NCBI GenBank assembly: GCA_018396705.1
Contig: JAGTQZ010000003.1
Coordinates: 62,001-126,000 of the forward strand
Direction of reading: 5' to 3'
Source: Candidatus Bathyarchaeota archaeon
GTDB lineage: Archaea > Thermoproteota > Bathyarchaeia > Bathyarchaeales > Bathycorpusculaceae
DNA: 64,000 nt
Shown: piece by piece, positions 13,501 through 36,926 of the stretch
How the letters are laid out: each line of letters opens with the position of its first letter
Numbering within the stretch: position 1 is the stretch's first letter
Made by a program: the position numbers and the translations under genes
Notes under the pieces: generated by a model
Database searches by the model: none
Told to the model about the DNA's origin: nothing
Seen by the model: only the letters and a program-made list of their open reading frames with translations

Positions 13501-13505
13501 CGCTT

Positions 13506-16550: not shown

Positions 16551-16560
16551 GGTGGTCTGT

Positions 16561-16845
16561 GTGAAGGTTAGGACTAGCGTCTTTATAGAGAGGGAAATCC
16601 TCGAGAAAGCCAAGAAATTGGGCTTAAATGTTTCACAATGCTGTGAAAACTCCTTAAGGCTTTATATAGAAGCTATTGAAGGCTCTAACAGGAAAATTAC
16701 CCAAAATGAACCCTCAAAAGAGAATTCAGAGAATCCAGAAGCTTTAGAAATGAAAAGAGCATTAAATAGAGATTGGTCGGGCGGGCAGGATTTGAACCTG
16801 CGACGCTCCGGTTTCCGCAAATCACCTGTGCGCTTGGTAGGCTGA
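16561..16845 (+). CDS. CcdA-like antitoxin (ribbon-helix-helix type)
   Basis: The GTG at 16561, seven bases after GGTGG, begins VKVRTSVFIEREILEKAKKLG. This is the beta-strand plus helix of CcdA/RHH antitoxins, followed by LNVSQCCENSLRLYIEAI. About 70 residues look genuine. The last ~24 codons, beginning DWSGGQDLNLRR, are antisense to the tRNA-Tyr gene, and the stop codon lies within the tRNA intron. That tail is therefore not conserved protein sequence. No CcdB-type toxin is visible beside it. Archaeal homologues are often orphans and may be ordinary DNA-binding regulators. Confidence 0.68.
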   Translation: MKVRTSVFIEREILEKAKKLGLNVSQCCENSLRLYIEAIEGSNRKITQNEPSKENSENPEALEMKRALNRDWSGGQDLNLRRSGFRKSPVRLVG

Positions 16846-16910
16846 AACGGGACACCCACCATGGGCAGGTGTCTACAGCCGGAAGCTCTACCAAGCTGAG
16901 CTACCGCCCG
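16774..16910 (-). tRNA. tRNA-Tyr (GUA anticodon) with intron and encoded CCA
   Basis: Minus-strand cloverleaf. Acceptor CGGGCGG (16904-16910) pairs with CCGCCCG (16778-16784). The D arm is GCTC/GAGC, the anticodon stem TCCGG/CCGGA and the T arm GCAGG-TTCAAAT-CCTGC; discriminator A is followed by CCA at 16774-16776. The loop begins CTGTAG, giving anticodon GUA. About 60 bases (16813-16872) interrupt the loop after position 37, the canonical archaeal intron site cut by the bulge-helix-bulge endonuclease. The intron boundary could shift by a base because the flanking bases are alike. Confidence 0.93.
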
Positions 16911-16979
16911 CCCTTTCAGCTAACTCTTAAAATCGAGCAAGCTGATTTAACCGTTTCGTTCCGCCTCAAATATGGTTAA

Positions 16980-17485
16980 CAAAGGCATTTCATTTAGCGA
17001 AGGTGAGTATCATTAAATTAGAAAAGCATCTGTTAAACCTTAATTCAAGTTAGTAAATTGCTTAATCATCTTGAAGAATCTTGAACGAAACGCGCGTTTA
17101 CCTTCACGTGCCTAGGTTAGTTATCTTTCCTAATTTTTGAATCGCTGGAAGAACCACGTTACCTTTAATCATGCTTTTAATGGTGCGGATGGGAGTGCGC
17201 GTAACCATTACTGATGTATTTAACAATTTTAAACTCCATTCTAGGGCAGCCAATTTTTCTTTGATAGGAAACATGCGACTTTCCTTTTTTATCATTTTTT
17301 CACAGGAAAAATGTAGAGTGTATTGCTATTTAATATATTATTACCTTCACCCAAATATTTCAAAACCCGAAATACGAGACAACAAGCCTAGCTAGAAAAC
17401 CTGGCTGAAATTATACCTTGGATTTTAATTCTCGATTCACAACATTTTTGTTGTCCAAAATTCTTGTTTAGCTCAGGTCTAAAGT
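16980..17485. other. Intergenic stretch without a convincing gene
   Basis: About 500 AT-rich bases between tRNA-Tyr and the membrane zinc-ribbon gene. Two short overlapping frames exist (17171-17395 on plus, 17104-17295 on minus). Neither has a clear ribosome binding site or a recognisable domain. I see no RNA fold or repeat here. Confidence 0.4.
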
Positions 17486-17992
17486 TTGACCTGGAAAAAT
17501 CTGCTTGAGAACGGATGGATAGCTAAGATCACCATTATCTTATGGCTGGTCAGCGCAATATTTATTTTAGTTTTAATTGAACGCATAGACTGGATCATTC
17601 ACCACGATCTCTACAATTTCGGCTTACAATTCAACCATGAATGGGCTTCAGCTTACTGGACGATGGTAAAAATGATCTACGTCTTTTTAGCTGTACCAAT
17701 TATTCTAAGCGCAACATACTTTGGATTGGAAATTTGGCGCCTCTTTAAGGGAAAGCACGACCATGCAAGCATAGATGAAATTGCGAGGCTTGCAAAACTA
17801 GCCAAGCCTCAACAAAAAGCCAAAACAACCACTCAACAAGATCACATGCTAATCAGTTGTCCAAAGTGCAAGCGAGTCTTCAGCAAACCATTAGTTATGC
17901 TAGACTTCAGCACAGGAAAAAGCCGGCTCATAAACGTTTGTCCCTACTGCAACTTCGTTCTAAGCTGGGGAGAAACAGAAGAGAAACCATAA
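17486..17992 (+). CDS. Membrane protein with C-terminal zinc ribbon
   Basis: A 168-residue protein starting at TTG. Two membrane helices lie at about 14-32 and 62-85, then a charged linker. A four-cysteine zinc ribbon follows near the end: CPKC (about 130) and CPYC (about 153). The topology would leave the ribbon in the cytoplasm if the linker is cytoplasmic. No named family recognised. Convergent with the epimerase gene, 25 bases away. Confidence 0.65.
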   Translation: MTWKNLLENGWIAKITIILWLVSAIFILVLIERIDWIIHHDLYNFGLQFNHEWASAYWTMVKMIYVFLAVPIILSATYFGLEIWRLFKGKHDHASIDEIARLAKLAKPQQKAKTTTQQDHMLISCPKCKRVFSKPLVMLDFSTGKSRLINVCPYCNFVLSWGETEEKP

Positions 17993-18017
17993 CCATCAAC
18001 AACAGAAAACTTTGCAC

Positions 18018-18923
18018 TCACTCCATGAGACTTTTTAGGCCTTCCTCCAGTGTTATTTTCGGTTCAAAGCCCAAAAGCCTTTTAGCCAAAGCTATGTCTG
18101 CACAGCTGTGTTTTATATCTCTTGGACGCGGCTCGGCGAAGATTGGTTTCAAGTTCAGCCTTGAAAGCTTGATAATGAGTTCGGCAAGCTCCTTTATGGT
18201 TGTTGGCTTTCCCGTGGCTATGTTAATTGTTTGACCCGTTGGAGGTTTTTCTATGGCTTTTTTTATAGATTCAGCCACGTCGGCCACATGAATAAAATCC
18301 CTTGTCTGCTGCCCGTCACCATAGATTATAGGAGGCTTTCCGTTTTTGGCATTTTCTATGAAGTTTGTTATTACCCCAGCATAGGCACCTGTCTGCCCCA
18401 GTCCATAAACGTTAAACAACCGCAATATAACATAGTTTAGGCCTTGTCCCCCATAGAATTTTACGACTTCCTCACCCATTAGTTTTGATAAGCCATATGG
18501 CGATGTGGGATTTGTTGGATGCATTTCATTTATGGGAAGGTGTTTAGGCTCGCCATAAACGGCTGCGCTGCTCACGTAAATTATGAGCTCAACATTTTTG
18601 TCTAAACAGTTTTTAGCAATGTTCGCGGTGGCTGCAACATTATTCCTAAAGTATTGTGCCGGTTTTTGAAGGGATTCTTCAACACTTATGTACGCGGCCG
18701 CATGCACAACAACCTTAACCCCAACCAAGGCATTTCTGACAGCCGTATCGTTGAGGATATTGCCTTTTATTATAGGCACACCAGCGGCCTTCAGCCTATT
18801 TATGGCTTGCTCCGAAGCCCTTTCCAAACTGTCAAGGACAACTACCTCAAAGCCATGGTTTTTCAAGACTATGGCCACGTTATGACCTATAAAGCCTGCA
18901 CCACCAGTTACAAGTATCTTCAT
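18018..18923 (-). CDS. NAD-dependent sugar-nucleotide epimerase/dehydratase (GalE-like)
   Basis: Extended short-chain dehydrogenase fold. The N-terminus KILVTGGAGFIGHNV is the NAD-binding Rossmann loop, VVLDSL follows at the second strand, and the catalytic triad includes SSAAVYG and YGLSK (YxxxK, about residue 148). The C-terminal HVADVAESI and IATGKPT match UDP-glucose 4-epimerases. It probably interconverts UDP-sugars for the glycan genes that follow in the same direction. 301 residues, normal size. Confidence 0.92.
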   Translation of the reverse strand: MKILVTGGAGFIGHNVAIVLKNHGFEVVVLDSLERASEQAINRLKAAGVPIIKGNILNDTAVRNALVGVKVVVHAAAYISVEESLQKPAQYFRNNVAATANIAKNCLDKNVELIIYVSSAAVYGEPKHLPINEMHPTNPTSPYGLSKLMGEEVVKFYGGQGLNYVILRLFNVYGLGQTGAYAGVITNFIENAKNGKPPIIYGDGQQTRDFIHVADVAESIKKAIEKPPTGQTINIATGKPTTIKELAELIIKLSRLNLKPIFAEPRPRDIKHSCADIALAKRLLGFEPKITLEEGLKSLME

Positions 18924-19153
18924 GCTACAGCCCCTCTAGCCCAGAATATATCGACAGTCGCATAGAAAAATATTAATTAGTAATATAACCACAAAGGCGA
19001 GACTGGGCGAACCAGCCCAAAACTAATAATAAGAAAGGATGCCGAACATTTCAAAGATTTTCAACAAAATCGCTATTAACAGCGCGTGCAGATAATTCCA
19101 AGCAATACCCCCAATTATTTCTAAAATAGTCTGCACATTTTCGAATTTTCCTT

Positions 19154-19375
19154 TCACTCAGTTTTTGTATTTGTGCTTAGGTACGCCGCCCGTATTGTTT
19201 GGACTGCAATTAGGGCGATGGCTAAACCAATAACGCCCATTAACATTCCCAGAATTATTAATCCCGTTACCAGCGAAACTATGCCAATTAATCCAGCTGC
19301 GAAGACTTTTCGACTTTTCCCTTTTTCAATAAGATTTGCGTTTATTGTGGCGGTTCTTGGCGAGGCATAATAAAC
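19154..19375 (-). pseudogene. Fragment of a small membrane protein lacking a start codon
   Basis: On the minus strand a frame of 73 codons is open between stops. It encodes a plausible small membrane protein: a basic stretch EKGKSRKVF, two hydrophobic helices separated by a short turn, and a polar tail. No ATG, GTG or TTG precedes the first helix, so it is either a truncated gene or uses a non-standard start. The rest of the 505-base gap around it (18924-19428) shows only AT-rich promoter-like sequence for the epimerase gene. Confidence 0.35.
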
Positions 19376-19428
19376 TCACGCAGCGTTAAGGAGTTATGTG
19401 GAGAAACGATTTTTCTGTAGATTTTGTT

Positions 19429-20109
19429 TTAATTGTTTCTTTGTTTGCCGAAGCCTATGCCGTAATATAGGAAGCCTAGCCTTTCTGCTTGGATAGGGTT
19501 TATTATCCTTCTTCCGTCGATTATGGCTGGTTTTTCAGCCATTAGTGTCTTGATTTCCTGAAGGTTTAGGTTTTTGAATTCTATGTGGTCGGTTATTATG
19601 GTTAGGCAGTCTGCGCCTTTAACTGCCTCATGTAGAGAGTTTGCCTTTTTGGCTCCGAAGCTTTGGCCGCAGTGGGGGTCGTAAACGATGATAGTGGCGT
19701 TTAGGCTTATGAGTTTGTGGATGATTGGCTCGGCTGGGCTGAGTCTTGGGTGGGTGTCGGCAAGTTTTATTACTTCTGTGACGTCTACTCCGTGTTGTTC
19801 GCATATTAGGGCAAGTTGGTTTGCGAAGGCTATGTTTATGTCGCGGAATGTGTTTTCTGCGAGTTTGGCAATTTCGGCTGTTGGGGCGTCTGTTTTGAAT
19901 AGTTCTGCGGCTATTTTGTGCTGTTTGACCCTACGCCTCCTATCAGTCTTGGGCTTTCAACAAACTCTTTTATGGCGTTTCCGGGCGCTATTCTTTCTGG
20001 AACGTGGGCTAAATAAAAGTCTTTTCCAACGGTTAAACAACTTGTAGCCTTTCTTAACTTTAGAATTAGACCGAAACTAAGATTCGAGCGCTTCGCAAGA
20101 AACTCTCAC
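19429..20109 (-). pseudogene. Truncated, frameshifted UDP-N-acetyl-D-mannosamine dehydrogenase (WecC-like)
   Basis: Conceptual translation of the minus strand gives the central and C-terminal parts of a UDP-sugar dehydrogenase: GKDFYLAHVPERIAPGN, RLIGGVGSNSTK, then after a one-base shift KIAAELFKTDAPTAEIAKL, ENTFRDINIAFANQLALI, and finally IIDGRRI and GFLYYGIGFG. The shift falls in a run of four A residues at about 19931 where five would keep the frame. The N-terminal NAD-binding domain (roughly the first 130 residues) is missing, and the remnant abuts the next gene. Real decay is therefore likely. WecC oxidises UDP-ManNAc to the uronic acid; its partner WecB is intact at 30624. Confidence 0.82.
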
Positions 20110-20154
20110 AGAAATTGATGAGGAGGAATCTATTCATTCTTTCGATTCAGCATT

Positions 20155-21423
20155 TTAATCAACGTGTATCAATGATAATAATGCAGAACATATTTTGCGT
20201 TCATTAATCTTTTTGAGTTGTTGAATTGTCATTATGAGGTTTGTTCTTTCTCGCTCATAATGTTTAAGCAATTTTTCTACGCAAGTCATTAATCTATGAG
20301 GAGTTATATTTTCAATGCTGATAACATAGTTATGTAGTCCTAATTGTTGAGATATGCCATGCGCCTTGAAATGTTGGTAGGAGATTATAATTGATGGTAT
20401 TCTTGCTAAAGAGGCCATGATCACAGAGTGCATTCGTGTTCCTATGAAAATATGTAACCCGAGTTTTCCCATTATTTTGACTAATGAAGTTGGTGATTCT
20501 TCTTTTACATTCAATAAATATACTTTTTTGGGATATATAGTAGAAAGTTTGCTGTATATGATCTTGCATGGACCTAAATCGTCTTCCCCTCCCCCGATAT
20601 AACTGAATGGTATTAGATAAACCTCAAATCCATCCTTCATTAAGTTGAAGGCGGTTTGTGTAATGCTGTCTATATATCTTTTATATAAGTTAGGCTGATT
20701 AAAGAGCCATTTGCGAACAGTTATTCCAACTCTAGGTTGGCTTTCAAGAACTTCACAGGTGGTTTTTGGCGACTGTAGAAAAAAGGACATATCACATGAG
20801 ACAAACATGTTTGGAGCATTTACATTAAGGTTTTTTCGGACATATAAAGATGAGAGCTCTTCACGATAAGTTACGAGATTCATACGATACAGAATTATGC
20901 GTGCAACAGTGCGGCTAAGAGCATCTTCAAATGGTCCGATGCTATGACCAAGCATCACTGTTTTCTTTTTCCTTAAAAATTTTGCGTAAACTATCGGAAT
21001 CGCATGTATGTAAAAGCCGAAATGAGAGTAAAGGTAATTTCCACCAACTATTATAACTAGGTGAGAATCATCTATACTGCGAAGAGTACATTTGAGTTGA
21101 CTGTCAAACAATTTTAAAAGAGGCATCAACGCTAAACTCAGTATCAAAAAGAGGGGCCCGAATAATCCTTTTAAAGCAACGCGTGATGCTGTACCAAACA
21201 ATACTCGTAGGGGCTGCAATGAATCTGTGATAGATGGCATTGGCAAAACTTTGATGGAATCTCCCAATTCCTTTTTGTGTTTTATAAAGCTATGGTGGTC
21301 AAAAGCCAACATCGTTATTTCTACGTTTGGCACAATCTTCTGAATTAGCTTTATGGTGGCGAGGGCAATAGCGGCGTCGCCTTTGTTATAGTAGGACCAA
21401 CAGCAAGCTATTACTATTTTCAT
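20155..21423 (-). CDS. Polysaccharide pyruvyl transferase family protein
   Basis: About 422 residues. The N-terminus MKIVIACCWSYYNKGDAAI and the later GTRMHSVIMASLARIPSIIISY (about residue 340) are signatures of the CsaB/WcaK family, which adds pyruvate ketals to surface glycans. IVGGNYLYSHFG (about 120) fits the family's first-domain loop. I chose the ATG at 21423 because it matches the family N-terminus and lies one base from the previous stop; a much longer frame to 21627 would overlap that gene. Part of the glycan island. Confidence 0.85.
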   Translation of the reverse strand: MKIVIACCWSYYNKGDAAIALATIKLIQKIVPNVEITMLAFDHHSFIKHKKELGDSIKVLPMPSITDSLQPLRVLFGTASRVALKGLFGPLFLILSLALMPLLKLFDSQLKCTLRSIDDSHLVIIVGGNYLYSHFGFYIHAIPIVYAKFLRKKKTVMLGHSIGPFEDALSRTVARIILYRMNLVTYREELSSLYVRKNLNVNAPNMFVSCDMSFFLQSPKTTCEVLESQPRVGITVRKWLFNQPNLYKRYIDSITQTAFNLMKDGFEVYLIPFSYIGGGEDDLGPCKIIYSKLSTIYPKKVYLLNVKEESPTSLVKIMGKLGLHIFIGTRMHSVIMASLARIPSIIISYQHFKAHGISQQLGLHNYVISIENITPHRLMTCVEKLLKHYERERTNLIMTIQQLKKINERKICSALLSLIHVD

Positions 21424-21424
21424 T

Positions 21425-24400
21425 TTACTGATTAGAAAAATTTTCTTTTGGTTCTTGAGTTTTTCTAACTTTTTCAATGGTGGCAATAAGCACGAGGACG
21501 ATAATTGAGAGGTATAATGAGGTGTGGACCTGTTCAAGTTGAGGATACAATTTGACAAGATCCGAGTAAACCGTGAAGGATCGGAAAGAACCATTATACT
21601 TGAAATCAAAGATGAAAAGATACACATTTGGATAATGAATTGTAAAAGCAGTCTCTCCGTTAAAAATTAATGTACGTCCCCAATGTTCCGCTTTTTTTCT
21701 CCAAAAGCTTTCCTCCAACTGTGTTTCGCCGTGAACCGTTATTCGGGGGTCCTTAACTAAAAGGGTGCTATTGTTTGTGACATAGTATTTTGAGAGAAGT
21801 TTTTCGTTTTCAAAAATATTTAACTCAAATGGTTCATAAAAAGAGATTTTAGCGTAGGTCCCCATTGTGTATGGGGTTATTTCTATATTGGTTGCCTTTA
21901 TTGAGAAGTGAATATTGGAATAGTCTTGGGCTTGTAGTTTGAGTTCAAAACCATTAATGAACATAATTGAGTTCGAGTCTATGTTTATGGAACCTTGTGC
22001 GGTAACTCGTTTAGTGTACATTTCGAAGCGTTGGTTTATGTTGTCTCGTGTCCAATTGAATGAGGGGAGTTCAGTTGTATCTTTTATCCATTTCAAAACC
22101 TCTGGTAAAATCTTGAGACTAGTTTCTTTATTATCTATTAAAGGAAACGCGTTAACGTAGATTAATTTTCCAGCGCCGTAGTTTTCTTGTATAATAAGTG
22201 GGGACACTTTTGTTTCGTTAAGCATGTAGAAAGCGGTGGCGTTATTAGTATTTAGGATGGGAACATTAATTGCGGCTGGTAGCGTTAGTGTTTGTTGTTT
22301 GTAGGCTATTGAATTTGAAGGTACACTGTTGGGTTTGAGAATAATTTCGATATCAGAAAAATAGAAGTCGTAAACTGAATTTGGTTCTCCGTTTATTCCT
22401 ATGCGGATCTTGCTTATCGCTGAAAGATTCATGGAGGTTGAGGCTTCGGTGAAATTATAAAAGTTCAATTTGAACTCTTTCCATTCTCCAGCATATGTAT
22501 ATGGAAGGGTATAGGCTTGATAGTTATTGTTGATGTCGAACAGTACAAAACGTACAGATTGAACGGGTTTGTTACTTTTAAACTTGAAGGCTAACGCTTC
22601 TGCATTTTTTGAATTCCAAGGCTCTTGGAAAATGTAATCGATTCTTAGCCAACCGTTGATATTGGTCTGTCCAGTTACATTCATAGTTGTTTGCTCGTTT
22701 TGCATCGTGGTTTTGATTTGGCCTTCGCCTATACTAATTTTCCATGAATCAATTGGTTCAACAGGTGCAATTTTGTCTTTTCTAATTAAATTCAGCTTTT
22801 CAGCAAAGTTCCCAAGTTTATCTACATTAAAGACGATTAGCGTTGCCCCTTCATCCAGTCTTTTTGTTAGTTTCTGGCTTAACTCATTGTCAAGCGGATC
22901 GTAGGGTAACACTATTATAGGATAATAGAGGTTCGTGAAGGCACTAGGCAGGGCGACATCGTAACTGCTGTTCGTCTGGGCAAATGCGTTTAATATGGAA
23001 GTGTAAGGTGAGCCTGTTGGGGTGAGAAGTAAAACTTCCGATTCTGGTGTTGGAGGAACACCGTAGGGAAGCTCGTAGATTAATGTTTCATTAATTTTGT
23101 ACACTGGATCAACAGCCTGAAGTACATTAGTGCATAGAAAAGAATCCCTATTCGACTTCAAAATGTAGTCATCAAATTCTGGAACGTACAAGAGATAATT
23201 TGCTTTTGTAAACCATGTACCAAAATAATAAGTTGCAGGATTAGATGTTAAGGCAATTGTACTTCGCATAGGGTCATAAACTCGCTTAATCCCTAAGCGG
23301 TCAAGAACGTCGGCTGATGGGGCGGTTATGCTTACAAACGTCGCAGATTGATTCATGAAGGGAGTATTTTCTCCAAGTGAAAGTGTTGCAATGCCCAAAT
23401 CTTTTGTAACCGCGCGTCTGGGTTGGTTAGCCCAATAATCGACAGTGAAGGCTGTTGACATTGTTCCAGCAACGATAACTAAAGCTAAGAGAATAGCCGT
23501 TAAGAACTTTAGAGACAGCCCACGTTTTTCCATCTCGGCTTGACGAAGCCGGTCTCTAATAGAACTAAGCAAGTATAAAGCGAACATTGTCGCAATTATG
23601 GCAACAACTCCGTGCAAAAAATATCTCAATATGCGTATCTCCCAGTAATCTACAGAAACAAGGTATACTTTGGTAATAGTTATGCTTTTTCCGAAAACAA
23701 AAAGTGCACCCGCTAAGATTATGAAGGTCATAAAGTGTTTCGACATGTCTACAAGAAAGCCACACATGTTATTTTTAAGCAATAGTGCAAGAACCACGAA
23801 AATTCCCAATACACCCAACCTCATAGGGTAAGTATACCAAGGAACAAAACCAATGTCTGTGAAAATGCTTTGCAAGTTCCATAGAGTTTGTTCTTCTTGA
23901 ACCCAAAGATAAAAAGATAGCATATATAGGAAAAGAATCAACATGGAAATACTAATGTGAACTGTTCGATCATGTTTGATATATGCAATGAGTTTTTTGA
24001 AAAAAGTGAATATTTTTTGTGACCCAAGCATTAACAACGTAGTCGCGATTAGATAGGTCAAAGGCAACAAGGATTCCCAAAGTCCGACAGTAAATAAGCC
24101 GGCTTTTGGCGACAAACGTATCACGATTAGTGTGGTAAATAAGCTGAGGATCAGGGCTAAGTAAACCAAAAATTTCCTAGATTGATTAATAGATCGACAA
24201 AAAAGAAGAATAACACCAAACATAAATACGAAAATTAAGGCCTCAGAAACATGCAATGCCCACGCTGTAAGAAAGGTCAATAAAGTTAACGCAAAGACAA
24301 CGCATCTTTGTTTAATCGTACTGAATAAAAGGCATAACAACATAAAAAACGCGGTAAAACTAACCCAAGCTGGATTATTTCCACATATCCATAAATTTGA

Positions 24401-25465
24401 AAAAAGTGTGTCATTGGCTGTAATAGATGCTGTTCGGACCAAGGCATCAGTCCAGCTTTCAAATTGCATTCGGTATAATGCATAGATCCAACCAAAGCCA
24501 GAAAAGAGGGAAAAAAACACGGTAGCGATGGCGGGCATTGCATGAATTTTTTCTCCAAAAATTTTTCTTGCCATACAGTAAAACGCTAAAATGGGCATAA
24601 CGTTCAGTAGATTGAATACCGAAGCAGAATTGACTAATGGAAAGCCCGAGAGGGAAAAGACGTAAGCAAGACTTACATGAAACCAGTTTAGCGGAATTCT
24701 TACTACTTCTAATCCATATCGTATTATGGAAATTGCTGTTCCTTGATGTCGCCATACGTCACCGCCGAGGTATCCATAATCTTTTAAAAATGCTAGAGCT
24801 GCTACAAAAAAAGCAATTAAAGTAATTAGTAATAGGAGGTCTATGCGAACTTTTCCGTCCCTCCGCTTTATTTCTACATTTTTCTTCAAAAGAATGTCGG
24901 AGACAAAGATGCATATTAGAAGAAGGAAGGAAATTGACAAGTAGAATACTGTAGAAATCTTTCCGAGAAACAATAATGAAATCAAACTCACAAACGGCGT
25001 GTAGAAATAGCTTAGAAGAAACGAAAAGACAAACGCATCTAAACTACGTATCGAATAACCTACGTCGATAAGTCGAAGAATAAAGTACCCTGGAAGAAAG
25101 AAAATGACTCCTATTGACGCAAGTAAAAGTATGTAGTTTTGAATTGGAATGGCACCCCACTCTTGGAAAAATATTAAAGAACGAGGCACTAAGCCTAACA
25201 TATGGGCAGATAAAAGAAGAATTAATAGAACAGCATACAATATAGCAAGCAGATTGTATGTACTGATTTTATATAAAAGAGACATTTCCACACACACTGA
25301 TGGAGGTTCGCCTCGAAGCGTGAAACGTGTGATAGCTACCGATAGAACACTAAGTATGAAAGCGAACGCTAAGCCAAATGCAGTCCTTGAAACATACACC
25401 AGCACAGAAAACGTTGTGATAAATGCAAGTATCTGTGCGAATACCTCAATCTTTCCTTTGAACAT
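21425..25465 (-). CDS. Very large multi-pass membrane protein, GT-C-like with extracellular domains
   Basis: 1346 residues. The first ~690 contain many hydrophobic helices, with a lumenal loop reading YGYLGGDVWRHQG (about residue 233) of the kind that binds lipid-linked sugar in GT-C glycosyltransferases. The WWDYG motif of oligosaccharyltransferases is not seen. The remainder is mostly extracytoplasmic. A Rossmann-like GATase/ThuA-like segment (VLLLTPTGSPYTSILNAF, then IIVLPYDPLDNELSQ and GATLIVFNV) appears interrupted by a beta-sandwich resembling a carbohydrate-binding module, then resumes (YGAGKLIYVNAFPLI). One membrane helix lies near the C-terminus. Sits among glycosyltransferases; the enzymatic role is inferred. 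Confidence 0.8.
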   Translation of the reverse strand: MFKGKIEVFAQILAFITTFSVLVYVSRTAFGLAFAFILSVLSVAITRFTLRGEPPSVCVEMSLLYKISTYNLLAILYAVLLILLLSAHMLGLVPRSLIFFQEWGAIPIQNYILLLASIGVIFFLPGYFILRLIDVGYSIRSLDAFVFSFLLSYFYTPFVSLISLLFLGKISTVFYLSISFLLLICIFVSDILLKKNVEIKRRDGKVRIDLLLLITLIAFFVAALAFLKDYGYLGGDVWRHQGTAISIIRYGLEVVRIPLNWFHVSLAYVFSLSGFPLVNSASVFNLLNVMPILAFYCMARKIFGEKIHAMPAIATVFFSLFSGFGWIYALYRMQFESWTDALVRTASITANDTLFSNLWICGNNPAWVSFTAFFMLLCLLFSTIKQRCVVFALTLLTFLTAWALHVSEALIFVFMFGVILLFCRSINQSRKFLVYLALILSLFTTLIVIRLSPKAGLFTVGLWESLLPLTYLIATTLLMLGSQKIFTFFKKLIAYIKHDRTVHISISMLILFLYMLSFYLWVQEEQTLWNLQSIFTDIGFVPWYTYPMRLGVLGIFVVLALLLKNNMCGFLVDMSKHFMTFIILAGALFVFGKSITITKVYLVSVDYWEIRILRYFLHGVVAIIATMFALYLLSSIRDRLRQAEMEKRGLSLKFLTAILLALVIVAGTMSTAFTVDYWANQPRRAVTKDLGIATLSLGENTPFMNQSATFVSITAPSADVLDRLGIKRVYDPMRSTIALTSNPATYYFGTWFTKANYLLYVPEFDDYILKSNRDSFLCTNVLQAVDPVYKINETLIYELPYGVPPTPESEVLLLTPTGSPYTSILNAFAQTNSSYDVALPSAFTNLYYPIIVLPYDPLDNELSQKLTKRLDEGATLIVFNVDKLGNFAEKLNLIRKDKIAPVEPIDSWKISIGEGQIKTTMQNEQTTMNVTGQTNINGWLRIDYIFQEPWNSKNAEALAFKFKSNKPVQSVRFVLFDINNNYQAYTLPYTYAGEWKEFKLNFYNFTEASTSMNLSAISKIRIGINGEPNSVYDFYFSDIEIILKPNSVPSNSIAYKQQTLTLPAAINVPILNTNNATAFYMLNETKVSPLIIQENYGAGKLIYVNAFPLIDNKETSLKILPEVLKWIKDTTELPSFNWTRDNINQRFEMYTKRVTAQGSINIDSNSIMFINGFELKLQAQDYSNIHFSIKATNIEITPYTMGTYAKISFYEPFELNIFENEKLLSKYYVTNNSTLLVKDPRITVHGETQLEESFWRKKAEHWGRTLIFNGETAFTIHYPNVYLFIFDFKYNGSFRSFTVYSDLVKLYPQLEQVHTSLYLSIIVLVLIATIEKVRKTQEPKENFSNQ

Positions 25466-25474
25466 ATCCTCACA

Positions 25475-26737
25475 TCAAGCTAGCGCTTTCTCATACAGCT
25501 GGATTATTTTAGGACCTAAAAGAGTTATGTCGAATCTACGCACCCATTCTAGATTAAAAACTTTAACTTGAGACTTAAATTTTTCATTGTTTAATATAAT
25601 AGATATTTTGGTTGCAAGGTCGTCAGGGGAGTTTGGGTCAGCCAAATAACCCCCCCTCTTATCGACAATAAGCTCAGGAATTCCGCCCAACCTTGTGGCT
25701 ACCACAGGAAGCCCAAGCGCCATTGCTTCAAGTATAGCCGTTGGACAAGCATCAGGATACCTTGCTGGATGGACGAAAACATCACTTTGCGCCATTATTG
25801 CAAGTTGAATTTTTCTTGGAACAAAACCAGTGAAGATAATATTTCCAATCGGTTCCGCAAGGTCTTCTAGCTGTCTTCTTTGCGGGCCTTCCCCACCAAC
25901 CACAAGGTAAATATCATCCCTAGCACTTTTGCGAAGTTTTTTAAAGGCTTTTATCAAAAAGTCAACACCCTTATTGAACGATAGGTTGCCAAAGTACGTT
26001 ATAATCCTAGCACTAGAGGGAATGTTCAAATAATCCCTTAAATCAAATTTTGTTGAGTGCTTAAGCGCGGACGTTATTTCCTCAAGATCTATGAAATTGT
26101 ATATTGTAACTAAATTGCCCACATTTAGGACATTTTTAATGTAACTTTTTACATAATCACTCACACATATTACATACTTAACGCTATTCAAACTTTCTTC
26201 CATTAACCTGTAGTAGCAGTAATAGTAAGGTATCATAACTGGTAGAACGCACACATGTTCAGGTTTTCCGCTTACGTCACAGATCGCACAGTTTACCACA
26301 GACTGTTTTTTGCATGGTCTTGACAGTTGCAAGACGCAGGCCGGGAATATGCCATGGACGGATGTAATAATTGGGCTTTTACATTTAGTAAACCTCAAAA
26401 AAAGTTGATGTGTTCCATGGTAGTGTACAATGTCATATTTGTCGGCGACTTCGTTAAAATATTTTACAATACTGCGCGAGAACAGAAGATATTTTGTTGT
26501 GTTATAAAGAGGAAGGCTAGTTGCCATCGGAAGAATTCTTAAAACTTTAATCTTGTGTACTCCTTCTAGATATTTATCTAATTGAGAAGTTTGACAAATA
26601 TATTTAGATGAACGTGTAACCACGACAACGTCATGGGATAGCTTACTAAGGTAACATGCTAAGGTATATGTATGCCGCTCCACACCGCCCAGCGATGGAA
26701 GAAAATTATCTGTAAGTATAAGGATTTTCATTGCCAT
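25475..26737 (-). CDS. Glycosyltransferase family 4 (GT-B fold)
   Basis: A 420-residue retaining GT-B enzyme. The N-terminus ILTDNFLPSLGGVERHTYTLA is the classic GT4 opening loop. The C-terminal donor domain has VVGGEGPQRRQLE, FVHPARYPDACPTAILEAMALGLPVVATRLGGIPELI and the E-x7-E pair. A cysteine-rich insertion (CKKQSVVNCAICD and nearby cysteines, about residues 140-165) is unusual and may bind metal. Likely adds a sugar to the surface glycan. Ten bases upstream of the large membrane protein gene. Confidence 0.93.
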   Translation of the reverse strand: MAMKILILTDNFLPSLGGVERHTYTLACYLSKLSHDVVVVTRSSKYICQTSQLDKYLEGVHKIKVLRILPMATSLPLYNTTKYLLFSRSIVKYFNEVADKYDIVHYHGTHQLFLRFTKCKSPIITSVHGIFPACVLQLSRPCKKQSVVNCAICDVSGKPEHVCVLPVMIPYYYCYYRLMEESLNSVKYVICVSDYVKSYIKNVLNVGNLVTIYNFIDLEEITSALKHSTKFDLRDYLNIPSSARIITYFGNLSFNKGVDFLIKAFKKLRKSARDDIYLVVGGEGPQRRQLEDLAEPIGNIIFTGFVPRKIQLAIMAQSDVFVHPARYPDACPTAILEAMALGLPVVATRLGGIPELIVDKRGGYLADPNSPDDLATKISIILNNEKFKSQVKVFNLEWVRRFDITLLGPKIIQLYEKALA

Positions 26738-26823
26738 TTAATTTATGCTTGTTCTAATTGTTGGAGGATTTTTGCCATGTTTGTATTGTTTTCTCGTAGC
26801 TGAAGTTTTCTTTTCACTTGCAT

Positions 26824-27636
26824 CTATAATGGAGTTTCATGAAACATTGCTCTTAAGAGAGGATGTAACAGTAATCTATATGATTGTAGGATTCCATAAA
26901 ATCTCGCGTAAAATAGCATACTATTTCTATATTCATAGTAAAGTGTCTTCAGCATGGAATTTTTTTCACATCCGCCACAAGCTATATGCCGGTGCCAAAG
27001 TACAGATTTAGGTTGGAAGAACAATTTGTACCCTTTGCTTCTTATTCTATAATAAAAGTCGACTTCTTCTCTTGCATGTGTCCCTAAATAAAGTTTTTCA
27101 TCAAACCCCCCAACGATTTTAAAAATTGTTTTTGGAATCAACGAACAAGCATGGAGAAATGGTACTTCAATAATTTTTCCAGGATCGTATCCAAAGTTGT
27201 GGTATGTCCAGCCAGTAACGTGACCTATTCTAACCACATCATTTAACCACTTATATCCTGCATCTATAAGACGAGGTCCGACTGCTCCAACTTCATGTTC
27301 TTTTTTGAGCTTAAAGTATGTGTCAATAAGGATTTTGAGCGCGTCTTTGTTTTGGAAAATTATGTCATCCTCCCCGAAAAAAATCAAATCACCTCTTGAC
27401 AAAGATACGCCGAGGTTGCGGGTTGCGGGCAATCCCTTATGGTTTGCAGAACGATACAAACGAACTCTTTCATCATCCGTATACTTGGCTGCTATTTGAA
27501 AAGTATTGTCTTTAGAGGCATCGTCTATTATTATCAATTCCCAGTTTGTATAGGATTGTTTAATTAATGACTTTATAAACGTCTCTAACATGAAACTTCT
27601 ATTGTAAGTTGGCAGCACAATCGACAAGGTTACCAT
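26824..27636 (-). CDS. Glycosyltransferase family 2
   Basis: A 270-residue GT-A enzyme. The N-terminus LSIVLPTYNRSFMLETFI, the UDP-binding LIIIDDASKDNT (about residue 35) and a variant DXD, GEDDIIF (about 92), are clear. KLYLGTHAREEVDFYYRIRSKGYK corresponds to the ED catalytic region. Soluble or peripherally membrane-bound. Part of the leftward glycan gene array. Confidence 0.92.
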   Translation of the reverse strand: MVTLSIVLPTYNRSFMLETFIKSLIKQSYTNWELIIIDDASKDNTFQIAAKYTDDERVRLYRSANHKGLPATRNLGVSLSRGDLIFFGEDDIIFQNKDALKILIDTYFKLKKEHEVGAVGPRLIDAGYKWLNDVVRIGHVTGWTYHNFGYDPGKIIEVPFLHACSLIPKTIFKIVGGFDEKLYLGTHAREEVDFYYRIRSKGYKLFFQPKSVLWHRHIACGGCEKNSMLKTLYYEYRNSMLFYARFYGILQSYRLLLHPLLRAMFHETPL

Positions 27637-27664
27637 TGGGACAAGATCGCATCGCTTCTCATTT

Positions 27665-28801
27665 TTAACTAATGTTAGCTTTTAAAATATGATCATACAA
27701 TCGCAGTAACCTCTTTTCCATTAGGTTCCAGTTGTATTTTTGTTCGAATGCTCGCCTTCCATTTTCGCCAAGTTTCCTTCTAAGGGATGGATCATTTTTT
27801 AAACGGATAATTGCATTTCGCACTTCTTCCACATCATAATCCACGATTAAACCGCAATGAGCCTCGGCCACAACATCCCTACATACATTAGTTATTACTG
27901 GAACCCCTAGCATCATAGCCTCAAATAACTTGTTTGGACTTGCAACACGATTTATTGGAATGGAAGGATCATACAAAACGGGGATTACATCAGCTATTCT
28001 CTCTAAATTTATGACCTCCGTTGCTTCTAACAAACCGACATAGCGAACATTTGAGTTTTTAAGCAAATGAATTAATGTATAATCAAAAACCCGTCCGGCT
28101 AAGATTAGACGCACATCCCTTAAATCCTTAATAGCTTCACCGATTAAAATTAGCCCTCTATCATGCGCTATAGCCCCAGCATAGACCAGAGTCAAAACTC
28201 CAGGTTCATCAACTTCTAAAATCGGTTTATCTTCAGTTTTTTCCAATCCCTCAAAGTCAGGACAGTTCATTATAACCTCTGTATATTTAGGCAGGTATCC
28301 ACCAAAGGAAGACTTACGCTCATCTGAAACCACTATCAACGCATCTGAATTTTTAGCCAAAATATCTTCAATTTTATTCACAGCAAGGTAGATAAGACGA
28401 TACTTGGGTGGAATGAAAGCCATAGCAAATCTATCAAAATTATCAAAAACAAGTTTGACTGAAAATAATGTTTTGAAAAAATAACCTGGCACTAATGCGT
28501 CAAGATCGCATGCATGAATAATTTTTGGTTTATAAGTGAGCAAATTCTTAAAAGTCCACAACCAAAACAGCGGATAATATAATAAGATATGGAACTTTGA
28601 ATAAGGAGCTTTCATTTTAAACCGTTTTACAGGCGCAAGTTTCTCCAGAATCTCAAAAGAACTATGTGTTCCTTCACGATCCCATCCTAAAACGAGTAGC
28701 CTATACTTTCTAGATAGAGAACGAATGATCTTCAAAACCCTCATTTCGTATAAAACGGGATTAGACCTAATTAACACAACTTCAAAATAATTTTCCAGCA
28801 T
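27665..28801 (-). CDS. Glycosyltransferase family 4-like (GT-B fold)
   Basis: A 378-residue GT-B protein. The acceptor domain includes IIHACDLDALVPGYF (about residue 90). The donor domain has LTLVYAGAIAHDRGL (about 205), LILAGRVFD and SPNKLFEAMMLGVPVITNV (about 290), the nucleotide-sugar binding stretch. The N-terminal glycine-rich loop of typical GT4 members is weak. Next to a GT2 gene 28 bases downstream. Confidence 0.88.
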   Translation of the reverse strand: MLENYFEVVLIRSNPVLYEMRVLKIIRSLSRKYRLLVLGWDREGTHSSFEILEKLAPVKRFKMKAPYSKFHILLYYPLFWLWTFKNLLTYKPKIIHACDLDALVPGYFFKTLFSVKLVFDNFDRFAMAFIPPKYRLIYLAVNKIEDILAKNSDALIVVSDERKSSFGGYLPKYTEVIMNCPDFEGLEKTEDKPILEVDEPGVLTLVYAGAIAHDRGLILIGEAIKDLRDVRLILAGRVFDYTLIHLLKNSNVRYVGLLEATEVINLERIADVIPVLYDPSIPINRVASPNKLFEAMMLGVPVITNVCRDVVAEAHCGLIVDYDVEEVRNAIIRLKNDPSLRRKLGENGRRAFEQKYNWNLMEKRLLRLYDHILKANIS

Positions 28802-28896
28802 CGCACACTTCGCCTCGTAAGGTTGCTATTCAAAGCTAAACCTAAAAACTCAGATAGTTTTTCTTGCAGCATAAGTGGCAATCCAGCACAAATGCT

Positions 28897-29542
28897 TTAA
28901 GCCCGATTTACAAAGCAAAACATCAAACGATGCAACAGCTTTAAAAATCTGGTACCTCTAAAGAAGGATACCCACTTTCCCAAAATAGGGAATATGTGAA
29001 TAAATAAAAAGAAATAACCCTCGTTAACGATATTGAACCGCGCTTTGCCCAACATTTCTTTTAAAACGATCGGGACAAAGGGTCTTTCGGAACGAACATG
29101 AATATCTGTTGGAAAAAACTTACGACCGATCGCTGCAATAGGGTTAAGGGCTCCAGACTCATAAAAGATCACGCTTCCACCTTCACAAAGAACTCGTTGC
29201 ATTTCTAAAATTCCTTTGCTAGGATCAGCTAGATGATGCAGAGTTGATTTACAGACAATAACATTAAAACTAGAACCTTTAAATGGAAGCCTTTGCGCAT
29301 CACCAAGTACTATGCAAGCAATTCTTTTGTCAATTTTCTGCAACTCCTTGCGCGAAATGTTAATCCCTACAATCTCTTTGATGTTTTTGCTGGATTTATA
29401 CACCCAAAACACTTCGCCGCCTGCACCTAATATGGCAAACGCCCGTGGAAAGTTTCGTTAGGAGATGCTCAAAGTGTGAGTGAGGGCCAAGCTCAAGCAA
29501 ATGATTCATAGCCTGGATGTGCCATTGCTCTCCCCATTTCAT
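28897..29542 (-). CDS. Class I SAM-dependent methyltransferase, interrupted by a one-base frameshift
   Basis: The intact downstream frame (28897-29412) has motif II-III of a Rossmann methyltransferase: IVGINISRKEL, DAQRLPFKGSSFNVIVCKSTLHHL and an ALNPIA helix. Reading upstream on the same strand, the ATG at 29542 opens MKWGEQWHIQAMNHLLELG. After one extra A in a three-A run near 29453-29455, the frame continues FPRAFAILGAGGEVFWVYKS. GAGGE is the SAM-binding glycine loop, so the complete gene is about 645 bases with a single indel. It is either a sequencing error or a recent mutation. Likely methylates a glycan sugar or lipid; the HH-L pattern fits UbiE-like enzymes. Confidence 0.78.
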
Positions 29543-29580
29543 GCGTTTATCCCTTACTCACCTTTGTATGAAGTACATTT

Positions 29581-30636
29581 TCACTTTGAGACCCAATGGT
29601 AGAATATTTCACACGGTGCATCTTTTCTCTTCCATTTTCCCTTTTTAATACCATAAATCATTCCGATAAAATAACTCGAATGCTCTATGACAAATAGAAG
29701 CGGAACCAAAAATAAAAAACGAACTTCCTTCATTTTTATAACGGCTTGCAACCCTTTAAGCAATATAGTGATTAAGTAAATAGCTAAAAGCACCAGCGCA
29801 ATGAAAGGGAAAAACCACGCAACAAAAGGAAAAAGAAGAACTCCTACAAAGGGAACAATTGCCCCTTTATTCGCATAACTCCTGTTCGTAAGTATAGACC
29901 TCATTCGCCCCACTCCATACAAGAAAAACTGTTTAGCAAATTGCTTAATTGTGCTCCTGCGGTGGTGCTCTACACAAATCGATGGAACAAGTAGAAGCTT
30001 GTAACCCAATGCTCTCACCTTATAACTGAGATTTGTATCTTCACAAAGTTCGAACTCTTCATCAAAACCCCCAGTCTCTAAAAGAACCTTCCGCCAAAAA
30101 GCGCTATTTATACAAGCCAAAGCATTTACAAACTTGGGCTTTGAGGGTTTATGGAGACTAGCAGAACCCAAACTTCCCAAATAACTCGAAAAAACCAAAT
30201 CAACTGCCTTACCAAGAATAGAATCATCGGAGGGAGAAACATTTATACCCCCTACTCCTCCTAAAGTCGAAGATTGCTTAAGATTGCTAACGAGCAGAGA
30301 GAGCCAATCTCGGGATGCTTTACAGTCAGAATCTATAAATACTATAATTTCACCTCGCGCTAACTTAATGCCAAAATTTCTGGCTTGAGAGCGATTTCCT
30401 CCCTTAATAACTATCACTTCAAATTTACCCGAAAAAGTTGTCTCCTTCAAACTCGCCAGACATTCACTGATATACGAATCTTTTTCATCTCTTATCGGAA
30501 TGACAATGCTCACCTCAACCGGCATTTCCAACTTGATCCACATCACGTCGCAAGAATGAAGATCATGTAAACGCCAAGAAGCTTTCTTCGGGTATACTCC
30601 CTTTTGTTTTTTAGCAAGTTGAACTAACTCAAACAC
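29581..30636 (-). CDS. Membrane-anchored glycosyltransferase family 2
   Basis: A 351-residue protein. The GT-A domain starts near residue 40: VSIVIPIRDEKD, VIVIKGGNRSQARNFGIKLA and DXD in IIVFIDSDCKA. ELCEDTNLSYKVRALGYK is the catalytic acidic motif and ends in HHRRS. Two or three hydrophobic helices near residues 245-330 anchor the C-terminus. The GTG start at 30636 overlaps wecB by 13 bases, but an internal ATG at 30543 or 30525 is possible because family similarity begins there. Confidence 0.88.
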   Translation of the reverse strand: MFELVQLAKKQKGVYPKKASWRLHDLHSCDVMWIKLEMPVEVSIVIPIRDEKDSYISECLASLKETTFSGKFEVIVIKGGNRSQARNFGIKLARGEIIVFIDSDCKASRDWLSLLVSNLKQSSTLGGVGGINVSPSDDSILGKAVDLVFSSYLGSLGSASLHKPSKPKFVNALACINSAFWRKVLLETGGFDEEFELCEDTNLSYKVRALGYKLLLVPSICVEHHRRSTIKQFAKQFFLYGVGRMRSILTNRSYANKGAIVPFVGVLLFPFVAWFFPFIALVLLAIYLITILLKGLQAVIKMKEVRFLFLVPLLFVIEHSSYFIGMIYGIKKGKWKRKDAPCEIFYHWVSK

Positions 30637-31703
30637 ACTCTCAATGCTTCAATTATCCTTGCTCCAGCCTTCCCATCGCCGAAAGGATTTGGCCAGTTTC
30701 TCTCTTTATTGAGCATAAAATCTACTTTTTTAATGATTTCGTGTGGGTTTGTTCCGGCTAAAATGTTTGAGCCGACTTCAAGGGTTTCTGGTCTTTCTGT
30801 ATTGTCTCTCATGGTGACGCATGGTACGCCTAAGATACAGGCTTCTTCTTGTACTCCGCCTGAATCGGTGAGCACAAGCCTAGCGTTGCTTTCAAGCTGT
30901 AGGAAACTTAAGTAATCTAAAGGCTCAATGAGCCTAATGCTGTGAGGCTTCAGTCCAAAAGCTTCTAACCGTTTTCTAGATCTCGGATGGATGGGATAAA
31001 TCAGCTCAGCGCCAAACTCTCTATGAACCATTTCCAGCCCTTTCAAAATGTTGCGAAACCTCTTTTCATCGTCAACGTTTTCCTGCCTATGAACGGTAAC
31101 CACAAAATATTCATCCTCGTCAAGGCCCAAATCATTTAAAATGTTCACCGTTTTTCTGGCTATCTCCAAATTCTGGAAAACCGCATCGACGATCGTGTTG
31201 CCCGTGACAAATATTTTCTCTTCCGCTACGCCTTCTCCAATTAGTATCCGCCTCGACTTTTCAGTTGGAGCGAACAAGTAATCGGAGCAGTGATCAGTCA
31301 AAACCCGGTTTATCTCTTCGGGCATTCTCCGGTCATAACTGCGTAAGCCAGCCTCCACATGTCCAACCTTAATTCCCAGCTTAACAGCCGCTAAAGCGCC
31401 AGCCAAAACCGTGTTGGTGTCCCCCTCAACCAAAACCACGTCAGGCCATTCTTGCCGCAAAACTTTTTCTATTCCTATAAGCATTTTGCCAGTCTGCTCG
31501 GCGTGGCTTCCTGAGCCAACATCCAAATTGTATTTTGCCTCTGGAAGCTCCAGCTGTTCGAAGAAAATTCGATCCATATTGTAGGAGTAATGCTGTCCAG
31601 TATGCAAGATAAAGTATTCTAAGCCTAAACGTTCACATTCGCGGATTATCGGAGACATCTTAATAATTTCTGGGCGAGTTCCAAGCACGATGGAAATCTT
31701 CAT
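30624..31703 (-). CDS. wecB: UDP-N-acetylglucosamine 2-epimerase (non-hydrolysing)
   Basis: A 359-residue GT-B-fold epimerase converting UDP-GlcNAc to UDP-ManNAc. The signature GTRPEIIKMSPI opens the protein. HTGQHYSYNMD (about residue 36), VEGDTNTVLAGAL (about 95), GHVEAGLRSYDRRMPEEINR (about 115) and TDSGGVQEEA (about 280) cover the active site. ManNAc would normally be oxidised by WecC for surface glycans, but the WecC copy in this window is broken. Overlaps the upstream TIGR04076-like gene by four bases. Confidence 0.95.
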   Translation of the reverse strand: MKISIVLGTRPEIIKMSPIIRECERLGLEYFILHTGQHYSYNMDRIFFEQLELPEAKYNLDVGSGSHAEQTGKMLIGIEKVLRQEWPDVVLVEGDTNTVLAGALAAVKLGIKVGHVEAGLRSYDRRMPEEINRVLTDHCSDYLFAPTEKSRRILIGEGVAEEKIFVTGNTIVDAVFQNLEIARKTVNILNDLGLDEDEYFVVTVHRQENVDDEKRFRNILKGLEMVHREFGAELIYPIHPRSRKRLEAFGLKPHSIRLIEPLDYLSFLQLESNARLVLTDSGGVQEEACILGVPCVTMRDNTERPETLEVGSNILAGTNPHEIIKKVDFMLNKERNWPNPFGDGKAGARIIEALRVCLS

Positions 31704-32012
31704 TCGCCAACCCCTTTCTTCTCTACCCTTCTACACTTGAAAATCACTGTTCCGCCGTCAGTATAGGGCTTTCCAGGATCAACACATTGCATATACGCAA
31801 CCATTTTTTCCTTTGGCGTGGTCAGACCGAGCTTAACAGGGTCGGCGCCCTCTTCTAATGCAACAACATAATGTAGTAACGTTGATAACGCATGAACACA
31901 AACAGCATCCGGTTTCTTCCAAAACAATTTTTGGACCGTCTATAATGATCCGGTCTCCAACCTTGTGAACTGGACATTCGCCTTTAATCTCGCAAACCTC
32001 AATCTCCAACAC
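31700..32012 (-). CDS. TIGR04076-like small protein, interrupted by a one-base frameshift
   Basis: The intact C-terminal frame (31700-31927) reads CVHALSTLLHYVVALEEG and ends with QCVDPGKPYTDGGTVIF, the pattern I associate with the TIGR04076 family of small cysteine-containing proteins. Upstream, a GTG at 32012 preceded by GAGGCGAG starts VLEIEVCEIKGECPVHKVGD. That frame would join the C-terminal frame if one G in CCGG at about 31909-31912 were absent. The full protein would then be about 104 residues. Function unknown. Confidence 0.7.
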
Positions 32013-32033
32013 ATTTCTCGCCTCGCTTCTGTC

Positions 32034-32972
32034 CTACTTCCTGTTGATTTTCTGCGTTAATCTGGATATCGCATACAGCGTTACAGCCGTGAACAGGGCG
32101 AATAAACCGATAAATGTGAAGGCAATTGAAGCCAGGGCAAGATTTGTTACTATATGCCGCTCTAAAGCGTAAATCTGAAGCATCCACACTCCGAAAAATG
32201 TGCCTAAAAATAGTGAAATAATTCCAGGAACACCCAAGAAGAGTAGTGGTCTCTCCTCAACTACCAAGCGAATAAGCGACATAACCACGTCAACGCCGTG
32301 ACTAACAGGGTTACGTGTACTTTTATCTAAATCCTTACTATAACTGCATGACACAGGAACTTCAACAATCTTTAAACCCTTTTTATCAGCATCAACTAGA
32401 ATTTCAACACTCACGCCCATACCGTTCTCCGTTAAAGATAGTTTTTTAATGGCTTCGTGACTATAGGCTCTGAACCCGCTTTGGGCATCTTTTAAAGGAC
32501 GCCTCGTGCCATTATTAACCATTTTTGTGATAAACTTAATGCCAGCACGCCTATACCACGGCATGGTATATGCTCGACACTCATCGACAAGCCTTGAACC
32601 AATAACCACATCAGCAGAACCCTCAACAATTGGCTTCACAACGTTTGGAATCTCGCATGGATCATGCTGTCCATCACCATCTAAAGTTACCAAAACATCA
32701 GCGTTAAGCTCTCTGGCTCTTCTGAAAAGGCTTTGAATTGCAGCTCCATAACCCAAATTGCGATCATGCCTAATCACTTCCGCCCCTAGCTTCTCCGCAA
32801 TTTCACCAGTCATATCAGTAGAACCATCATCGCAAACAACAACTTTATCAGCAAACCTTAAAGCCTTCAAAACAACCTTAGCAATAGTCTTCTCCTCATT
32901 AAACGCTGGAATACCAACAACAACAAAAGGCCGGTCTATGTATGCCTTCACAACCCCAACATCAATATTCAT
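32034..32972 (-). CDS. Dolichol-phosphate mannosyltransferase-like GT2 with C-terminal membrane helices
   Basis: About 312 residues. VVVGIPAFNEEKTIAKVV, VVCDDGSTDMTGEIA and VTLDGDGQHDPCEI (DXD, about residue 105) are the DPM1/AglJ-type catalytic domain that transfers a sugar to dolichyl phosphate. Two hydrophobic helices near residues 230-250 and 270-295 place it at the membrane, where lipid-linked glycans begin. I chose the ATG at 32972 because GAGG lies eight bases before it; a TTG at 32990 is the alternative. Confidence 0.92.
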   Translation of the reverse strand: MNIDVGVVKAYIDRPFVVVGIPAFNEEKTIAKVVLKALRFADKVVVCDDGSTDMTGEIAEKLGAEVIRHDRNLGYGAAIQSLFRRARELNADVLVTLDGDGQHDPCEIPNVVKPIVEGSADVVIGSRLVDECRAYTMPWYRRAGIKFITKMVNNGTRRPLKDAQSGFRAYSHEAIKKLSLTENGMGVSVEILVDADKKGLKIVEVPVSCSYSKDLDKSTRNPVSHGVDVVMSLIRLVVEERPLLFLGVPGIISLFLGTFFGVWMLQIYALERHIVTNLALASIAFTFIGLFALFTAVTLYAISRLTQKINRK

Positions 32973-33090
32973 ATCTGAAGCCTCAACCAACAGAGAACCA
33001 CCAGACCAACGTTTTTAATGTAATTTTGTTAAAGAATTTGTATCGTTGTTTTTCCGAAAATTTTGAATAACACGAATTGTAAAAGCTCTA

Positions 33091-35869: not shown

Positions 35870-35922
35870 CTTATAGGCATGAAACCTTCTTTTTAAGAGG
35901 CTTATAGTTAATTAGCGGTTCG

Positions 35923-36474: not shown

Positions 36475-36528
36475 CCCTTAAACAGACCACCACTATTCAA
36501 GATCAGATTCTAAACTAGAACCATCAGT

Positions 36529-36538
36529 ATTTATAATT
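36529..36538. promoter_or_regulatory. TATA element between divergent genes
   Basis: ATTTATAATT at this position is the best TATA match in the gap between the two divergent genes. It sits about 25 bases upstream of the rightward ATG at 36557, the distance expected for a leaderless archaeal transcript. Read on the other strand (AATTATAAAT) it could also serve the leftward gene with a leader of about 30 bases. Confidence 0.5.
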
Positions 36539-36556
36539 TACGCCACACTAATAAGC

Positions 36557-36805: not shown

Positions 36806-36906
36806 GCACTCAACAAACATATTTTGGTCACAGAAATATGCTAACACAAACAGCAAGCCATTTATAACAAGACACCAAAATACAGATTTCAGCCAGAAAG
36901 GGAGAA

Positions 36907-36926
36907 GGGAGAAGGCCTACTCTCCC
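36907..36926. other. Short hairpin in a gene-free stretch
   Basis: GGGAGA (36907-36912) and TCTCCC (36921-36926) form a perfect six-base stem around an eight-base loop. It sits in the 250-base gap between the small protein gene and tRNA-Arg, where no gene is seen. Role unknown; no U-tract follows. Confidence 0.35.

Follow-up and report, generated by a model that had tools for sequence, protein, structure and literature searches.

The closest described counterparts of the locus analyzed here are the WecB and WecC enzymes of Methanococcus maripaludis, in which, according to a published review, WecB yields UDP-ManNAc, WecC then yields UDP-ManNAcA, and MMP0706 oxidises UDP-ManNAc (PMC2952790). 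The window, by which we mean the whole stretch of 64,000 nucleotides that was analyzed (G000:C3:62001-126000, from a 1.71 Mb draft genome of a Candidatus Bathyarchaeota archaeon in 9 contigs, 96.7% complete), holds a full-length WecB like that of the MMP0705 type (TIGR00236), together with a remnant of a WecC of the same three-domain family as MMP0706 and structure 4R16. The latter, which we take to be a structure from the genus Pyrococcus, is matched at 349 bits by the intact WecC relative of genome G140. Variable surface-glycan islands with pseudogenes are known from bacterial capsule and LPS loci. The island in which the remnant lies resembles these in being a block of glycosyltransferases bounded by tRNA genes, in differing between congeners, in a GC content that is lower overall, though not in wecB and the wecC remnant, and in containing several broken genes; unlike them, it belongs to an uncultured archaeon, and the ORFs scanned showed no integrase and the border stretches no flanking repeat. 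We consider it highly probable that the window carries a recently inactivated wecC in an acquired glycan island, with no second competent copy and with the ManNAcA step lost. The case is a fairly ordinary one, of a gene that has lately become a pseudogene within a glycan island that is eroding and was probably acquired. Literature searches returned no work on UDP-N-acetylmannosamine dehydrogenase in archaea and, judged by title, no archaeal work on a wecC or wecB pseudogene.

On the minus strand, positions 20066-19429 carry what is left of an archaeal UDP-ManNAc dehydrogenase (WecC), split between two reading frames, and the remnant that the original prediction had placed here is borne out by matches to PF03721, PF00984 and PF03720 and to NF040825, the profile of archaeal UDP-ManNAc dehydrogenase and the best NCBIfam profile for the remnant; a specificity for UDP-ManNAc would be expected. 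Piece A matches only the end of the NAD-binding domain (PF03721, 32 bits, profile positions 143-180 of 187), in agreement with the predicted lack of that domain. Piece B matches an incomplete central domain (PF00984, 60.6 bits, 2-50 of 94) and the C-terminal UDP-binding domain (PF03720, 66.9 bits, 15-103 of 103). For NF040825, piece A scores 37.6 bits (136-177 of 418) and piece B 116.9 bits, against a strict cut-off of 750 bits below which intact relatives in the family also fall (at most 416.9 bits), and missing it therefore says little. Of what a WecC needs, the remnant thus retains the C-terminal UDP-binding domain; it has neither one continuous reading frame with a start, nor the NAD-binding domain PF03721, nor a central domain with the GGxC..KD loop, the Cys of which we take to be catalytic from work on UDP-glucose dehydrogenase. 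Compared with archaeal WecC, the remnant has an interrupted frame, little of the NAD domain and no cysteine loop, and it should not be a working enzyme.

The frames of the two pieces meet at about 19914-19920, and homologues change frame in the short A run there, as had been predicted. Alignment with seven intact homologues (L127, L128, L026, L024, L129, L027 and L025) reveals four distinct lesions, of which two are large: about 150 N-terminal residues are gone, one base shifts the frame, and in-frame deletions have removed 8 codons around 19893 and a stretch of about 79 around 19746. Both internal deletions had been overlooked in the earlier work, as had the lack of a start codon, which is absent from the frame of piece A and, in piece B, does not occur before 19542. 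The truncation thus exceeds a single read error, as was originally argued, and losses of this size rule out base-calling error as their cause. All features are collected in Table 1.

Table 1. Features of the glycan island and its borders, in positions of the window.
Feature	Position	Strand	Evidence and remarks
Glycan island, ~20 kb, mostly glycan genes	16960..37037	.	Flanked by tRNA genes; missing from the site in G002 and G003
tRNA gene with insert, left border	16777..16910	-	RF00005 51 bits; not reported by ARAGORN
tRNA-Arg(GCG), right border	37058..37134	-	tRNA searches
GalE-like NDP-sugar epimerase/dehydratase	18018..18923	-	PF01370 209 bits
wecC remnant, piece B	19429..19917	-	First half of central domain fused to C-terminal UDP-binding domain; PF00984, PF03720
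~79-codon in-frame deletion, GGPC..KD active-site loop lost (approximate site)	19743..19749	-	Alignment with 7 intact WecC; tblastn gap
8-codon in-frame deletion (approximate site)	19890..19896	-	Alignment with 7 intact WecC
Frameshift between A and B at short A run	19913..19921	-	6 intact homologues switch frame here, gap -3 to +3 nt
wecC remnant, piece A	19914..20066	-	Last part of NAD-binding domain, rest of N-terminal part gone; PF03721, NF040825, tblastn of intact WecC
Polysaccharide pyruvyl transferase	20155..21627	-	PF04230 100 bits; adjoins truncated wecC end
1346-aa protein, many hydrophobic stretches (by reading)	21425..25465	-	No Pfam match
Group 1 glycosyltransferase	25475..26737	-	Pfam
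Family 2 glycosyltransferase	26824..27636	-	Pfam
Group 1 glycosyltransferase	27665..28801	-	Pfam
Methyltransferase pseudogene	28897..29554	-	Two-frame alignment of the G030 homologue (L109); frameshift ~29430
Family 2 glycosyltransferase, judged intact	29581..30636	-	Pfam; 63% identity to G081 over 310 residues, same length
wecB, non-hydrolysing UDP-GlcNAc 2-epimerase, intact	30624..31703	-	TIGR00236 456 bits, cut-off 210, 1-363 of 366
TIGR04076-family gene, frameshift ~31920	31700..32009	-	G001 homologue (L133) aligns in two frames
AglJ-like family 2 glycosyltransferase	32034..32990	-	TIGR04182 154.5 bits, below cut-off 325; adjoins wecB in G057 and G188
511-aa protein	33091..34626	-	No Pfam match; full homologue beside wecB in G057, partial in G188 and G044
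Family 2 glycosyltransferase	34610..35869	-	Pfam

To place the inactivation in time, the remnant was compared with the nearest intact copies found, which are only about 70% identical to it: over 209 shared columns, the intact WecC proteins of G187 and G140, which represent other families of the window genome's order and are 73% identical to each other, show 68% and 70% identity to the remnant. Close WecC relatives occur in 8 of the 255 other genomes of the class and in none of the genus; seven have full-length frames and the eighth (G010) is cut by a contig end. None of ten relative-rate comparisons of the remnant with intact copies was significant (chi-square at most 2.29), although it should be considered that these share the same 209 columns and are not independent, and that the test is noisy, with one comparison between two intact copies reaching a chi-square of 4.17. 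In the two most uneven comparisons, the remnant's own changes were the more numerous (21 vs 13 and 18 vs 10). Three of the 68 columns that are invariant in the seven intact proteins are altered in the remnant; when the intact proteins are left out singly, 2-10 of 70-78 invariant columns differ. As no significant acceleration of amino-acid change was detected, the inactivation of wecC looks recent, and the recency that the original prediction had claimed is supported as far as the gene is concerned. Selection would have kept wecC until lately, with indels preceding substitutions, and the island seems to have been caught early in its decay, at a stage in which indels are present and excess substitutions are not yet seen in this archaeal locus.

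Another wecC elsewhere in the genome had also been suggested, and the three Pfam domains of WecC were therefore searched across the whole assembly. One other full-length WecC relative was found (G000:C4:313824-315116; L001, L011), beside glmM. Four residues of WecC (Glu, Lys, Asn and Cys) are missing from the corresponding alignment columns of its protein; we presume these residues to be catalytic from work on UDP-glucose dehydrogenase and, as they are lost, the protein was rejected as a replacement for WecC. A 288-aa dehydrogenase relative (match C3:174865-175458) keeps a GGHC motif, has no match to the UDP-binding domain and was rejected for want of this C-terminal domain. A second wecB (C3:180098-181189) is located at a distance of about 5 kb from it, and similar short forms are found in other family genomes. 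Elsewhere in the genome there are three weak, partial PF03721 matches, inside frames of 290-592 aa. The suggestion thus found no backing beyond a paralogue that lacks the catalytic residues and a short relative, and no competent second wecC was found in the ~97%-complete assembly, the missing portion of which could still hold one.

We propose that a ~20-kb glycan island carrying a wecB and wecC pair entered between two tRNA genes and that wecC was then disabled, deletions and a frameshift leaving little of its NAD-binding domain and nothing of its catalytic cysteine loop. WecB, a full-length putative UDP-GlcNAc 2-epimerase that is 82% identical to the copy in G065 and, as predicted, intact, scoring far above its family cut-off, should still be able to make UDP-ManNAc, while the oxidation to UDP-ManNAcA is predicted to be lost. 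By the M. maripaludis pathway, the window genome would therefore stop at UDP-ManNAc and, if the cluster is still used, ManNAcA would be replaced by ManNAc in the island glycan, or the glycan would be devoid of mannosamine sugars.

The original prediction went further and held that the surface glycan had probably changed recently. Among 90 family genomes, WecB exceeded the cut-off in 55, the window genome included, and a WecC match of at least 318 bits was found in seven of these (G081, G055, G035, G057, G059, G030 and G022), leaving 48 of the 55 without one, a count that, like all absence counts given here, is weakened because many family genomes are incomplete drafts. The limit is our own choice, as is a limit of 300 bits, at which G071 joins and the number rises to 8 of 55. 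The window copy, in contrast to WecB of the MMP0705 type, stands without a working wecC, as WecB does in those 48 genomes. Within the genus, no intact WecC occurs in any of four genomes, and WecB matches occur in all four. In one of them, the congener G003, the wecB match is split between two frames (L077, G003:C1, 4513-5576). In many relatives, WecB thus appears to function with no WecC partner. Since WecB without a strong WecC is common in the family, a change of glycan does not follow from the loss of wecC; the loss of the gene looks recent, and to speak of a changed surface glycan is guesswork. The presence of WecB beside a broken WecC should accordingly not be taken as a glycan switch.

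The same comparison leads to a reading in which WecC would be dispensable, the 511-aa protein, the AglJ-like glycosyltransferase and WecB forming a module that uses UDP-ManNAc itself, so that the loss of wecC removed only an optional decoration. In G057 the three genes are grouped, and the available sequence of G188 and G044, in which the module is partly cut, shows the same grouping as far as it extends; neither of these two genomes has a wecC match at E <= 1e-20. Furthermore, the island's type of WecB (67-82% identity) was found in 11 other family genomes, in a comparison that took in 22 loci besides the window's own rather than every WecB match, and seven of the 11 have no WecC match of at least 300 bits, which, together with the 48 genomes above, favors dispensability. 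On the other hand, these figures depend on incomplete drafts and on self-chosen bit limits, and three of the 11 (G030, G057 and G059) have a close wecC, in one cluster with wecB and at most ~8 kb from it; G022 has another type. We judge this reading to be nearly evenly balanced, leaning slightly against it, and it adds to the explanation by recent inactivation in an acquired island and does not replace it.

The acquisition of the island was considered by comparison with close relatives, a check that had been proposed with the original prediction and that found the island absent from the site in both congeners in which it could be read. In G003, the flanks are collinear and a single large gene lies in less than 3 kb between tRNA-Arg and a stretch resembling the left tRNA; in G002, a similar large gene lies between the same borders, again in less than 3 kb, and the border stretches of the two are 87-89% identical to the left tRNA region (87% in G003). 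As the G001 assembly breaks at the island site, the comparison rests on the two congeners assembled across it. At this site, only about 139 nt match the island (36771-36909, G002). Whole-genome DNA searches of G001-G003, which took in window positions 1-19900 and 30600-50500 (19901-30599 being compared with the site only), found island DNA elsewhere in G001 only, as a 300-nt match to 36617-36916 and a 116-nt match inside wecB. The large gene that fills the site (L103, G003:C5, 11238-13622; L104, G002:C29, 4678-6465) encodes, by reading, a repeat-rich and apparently secreted protein, and a remnant of it sought in the window gave no match. Outside the island, window positions 2100-14954 differ from G002:C29:13322-28519 in segment order and strand, as after an inversion, and a CcdA-like antitoxin ORF (16507-16845, plus strand) runs into the left-border tRNA gene.

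The GC content of the island is 39.9%, against 45.8% and 42.5% in its flanks. Most of its glycosyltransferases have 36-39%, unlike wecB and the wecC remnant with 44.7%, and the argument from low GC for lateral gain therefore fails for these two. A search of the border stretches with words of 11, 12 and 14 bases revealed one common word, of 11 bases and within the tRNA genes, and no integrase was found among the ORFs scanned, some small ORFs lying outside the scan. We infer that the island was probably acquired laterally, although the relatives may instead have lost it.

The surroundings of the remnant had been described as an intact glycan cluster, which they are not, as both the methyltransferase gene and the TIGR04076 gene are frameshifted. 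In the former, a second frameshift near 28925 was seen by eye when the 3' end of the G030 homologue was set against the three frames of the window. The latter sits just upstream of wecB; its second half matches TIGR04076 (33-90 of 91) at 32.5 bits, just below the cut-off of 33, and its first half alone matches no profile. In the homology-covered part of the island, three genes are split in 5421 nt, against one in 25981 nt of core, an excess that is suggestive only, since wecC, from which the analysis started, is one of the three. The family 2 glycosyltransferase at 29581 was at one point suspected of an internal deletion because its first domain looked short; this was rejected, as its G081 homologue is equally long. 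The 1346-aa protein is a distant homologue (24% identity) of a 1423-aa protein (L071) in the wecB/wecC cluster of G030.

Such frameshifts bear on whether the remnant could be an artefact of assembly or binning, in which sequence from two strains or two repeats was merged, the organism itself carrying an undamaged wecC. The genome is a draft that was probably assembled from a metagenome, and each of the single-base frameshifts in wecC, the methyltransferase gene and the TIGR04076 gene could be an assembly error, and even the large losses in wecC might in principle stem from misassembly; a small conserved core gene outside the island (41033-41340, minus strand) also seems to be split between frames. 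Nonetheless, the losses in wecC are internal and flanked on either side by homologous sequence of similar identity, and the site lies inside a contig of 240 kb. A displaced N-terminal half sought in the window gave only the part inside piece A and chance-level matches, and the search of the genome for such a piece gave, besides piece A and the paralogue, only the three weak, partial PF03721 matches, all of which makes an artefact distinctly unlikely. It is more improbable still that piece B has been repurposed as a short UDP-sugar-binding protein that the cell continues to produce. Its 175 open codons after the frameshift and its conserved columns might suggest this, but an open frame is also expected of a recent pseudogene, its first ~125 codons contain no ATG, GTG or TTG, and the short form occurs in no relative among the 8 of 255 genomes with matches.

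The glmM-side paralogue, rejected above as a substitute for WecC, was followed through the family, where 51 loci were counted and 49 used, namely the copy of the window genome and 48 others (L229 and L250 were set aside, their best protein being another dehydrogenase and not beside glmM). The Cys of the GGxC column and the Glu of the PER column are found in none of the 49 copies, and the Lys and Asn are kept in one (L033). The gene glmM adjoins the paralogue in 46 of the 49, no glmM being present in the stretch examined for L033, L037 and L219. Some copies, that of the window genome included, have a Cys two columns away from the GGxC column, and the active site may thus have shifted. As 63 columns are at least 90% conserved, the paralogue is under selection. 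Tentatively, and with slightly more doubt than for a dispensable WecC, we suggest that it is a conserved non-catalytic protein that, by its sequence, keeps both nucleotide-binding domains and may act as a UDP-sugar- and NAD-sensing partner or regulator of phosphoglucosamine mutase. If so, the wecC of the island would have encoded the lineage's sole competent dehydrogenase of this type, and a glmM-linked, apparently dead dehydrogenase could be a partner or regulator of a novel type in the synthesis of amino sugars. Literature searches found nothing that links glmM with a nucleotide sugar dehydrogenase and nothing on UDP-glucose dehydrogenase as a pseudoenzyme.

Beyond these copies, 41 more loci were considered (8 of them family members), with GGxC in 13, all from outside the window's order and none with glmM beside it. 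In other families of the order, several copies are without the Cys and keep Lys, Asn or KD, with no glmM within the shorter stretch available. The wider group is without the Glu while GGxC is kept, and the loss of Glu alone is therefore no proof of inactivity. Together, this distribution of residues suggests that an ancestor bearing GGxC may have lost its catalytic residues stepwise and become tied to glmM.
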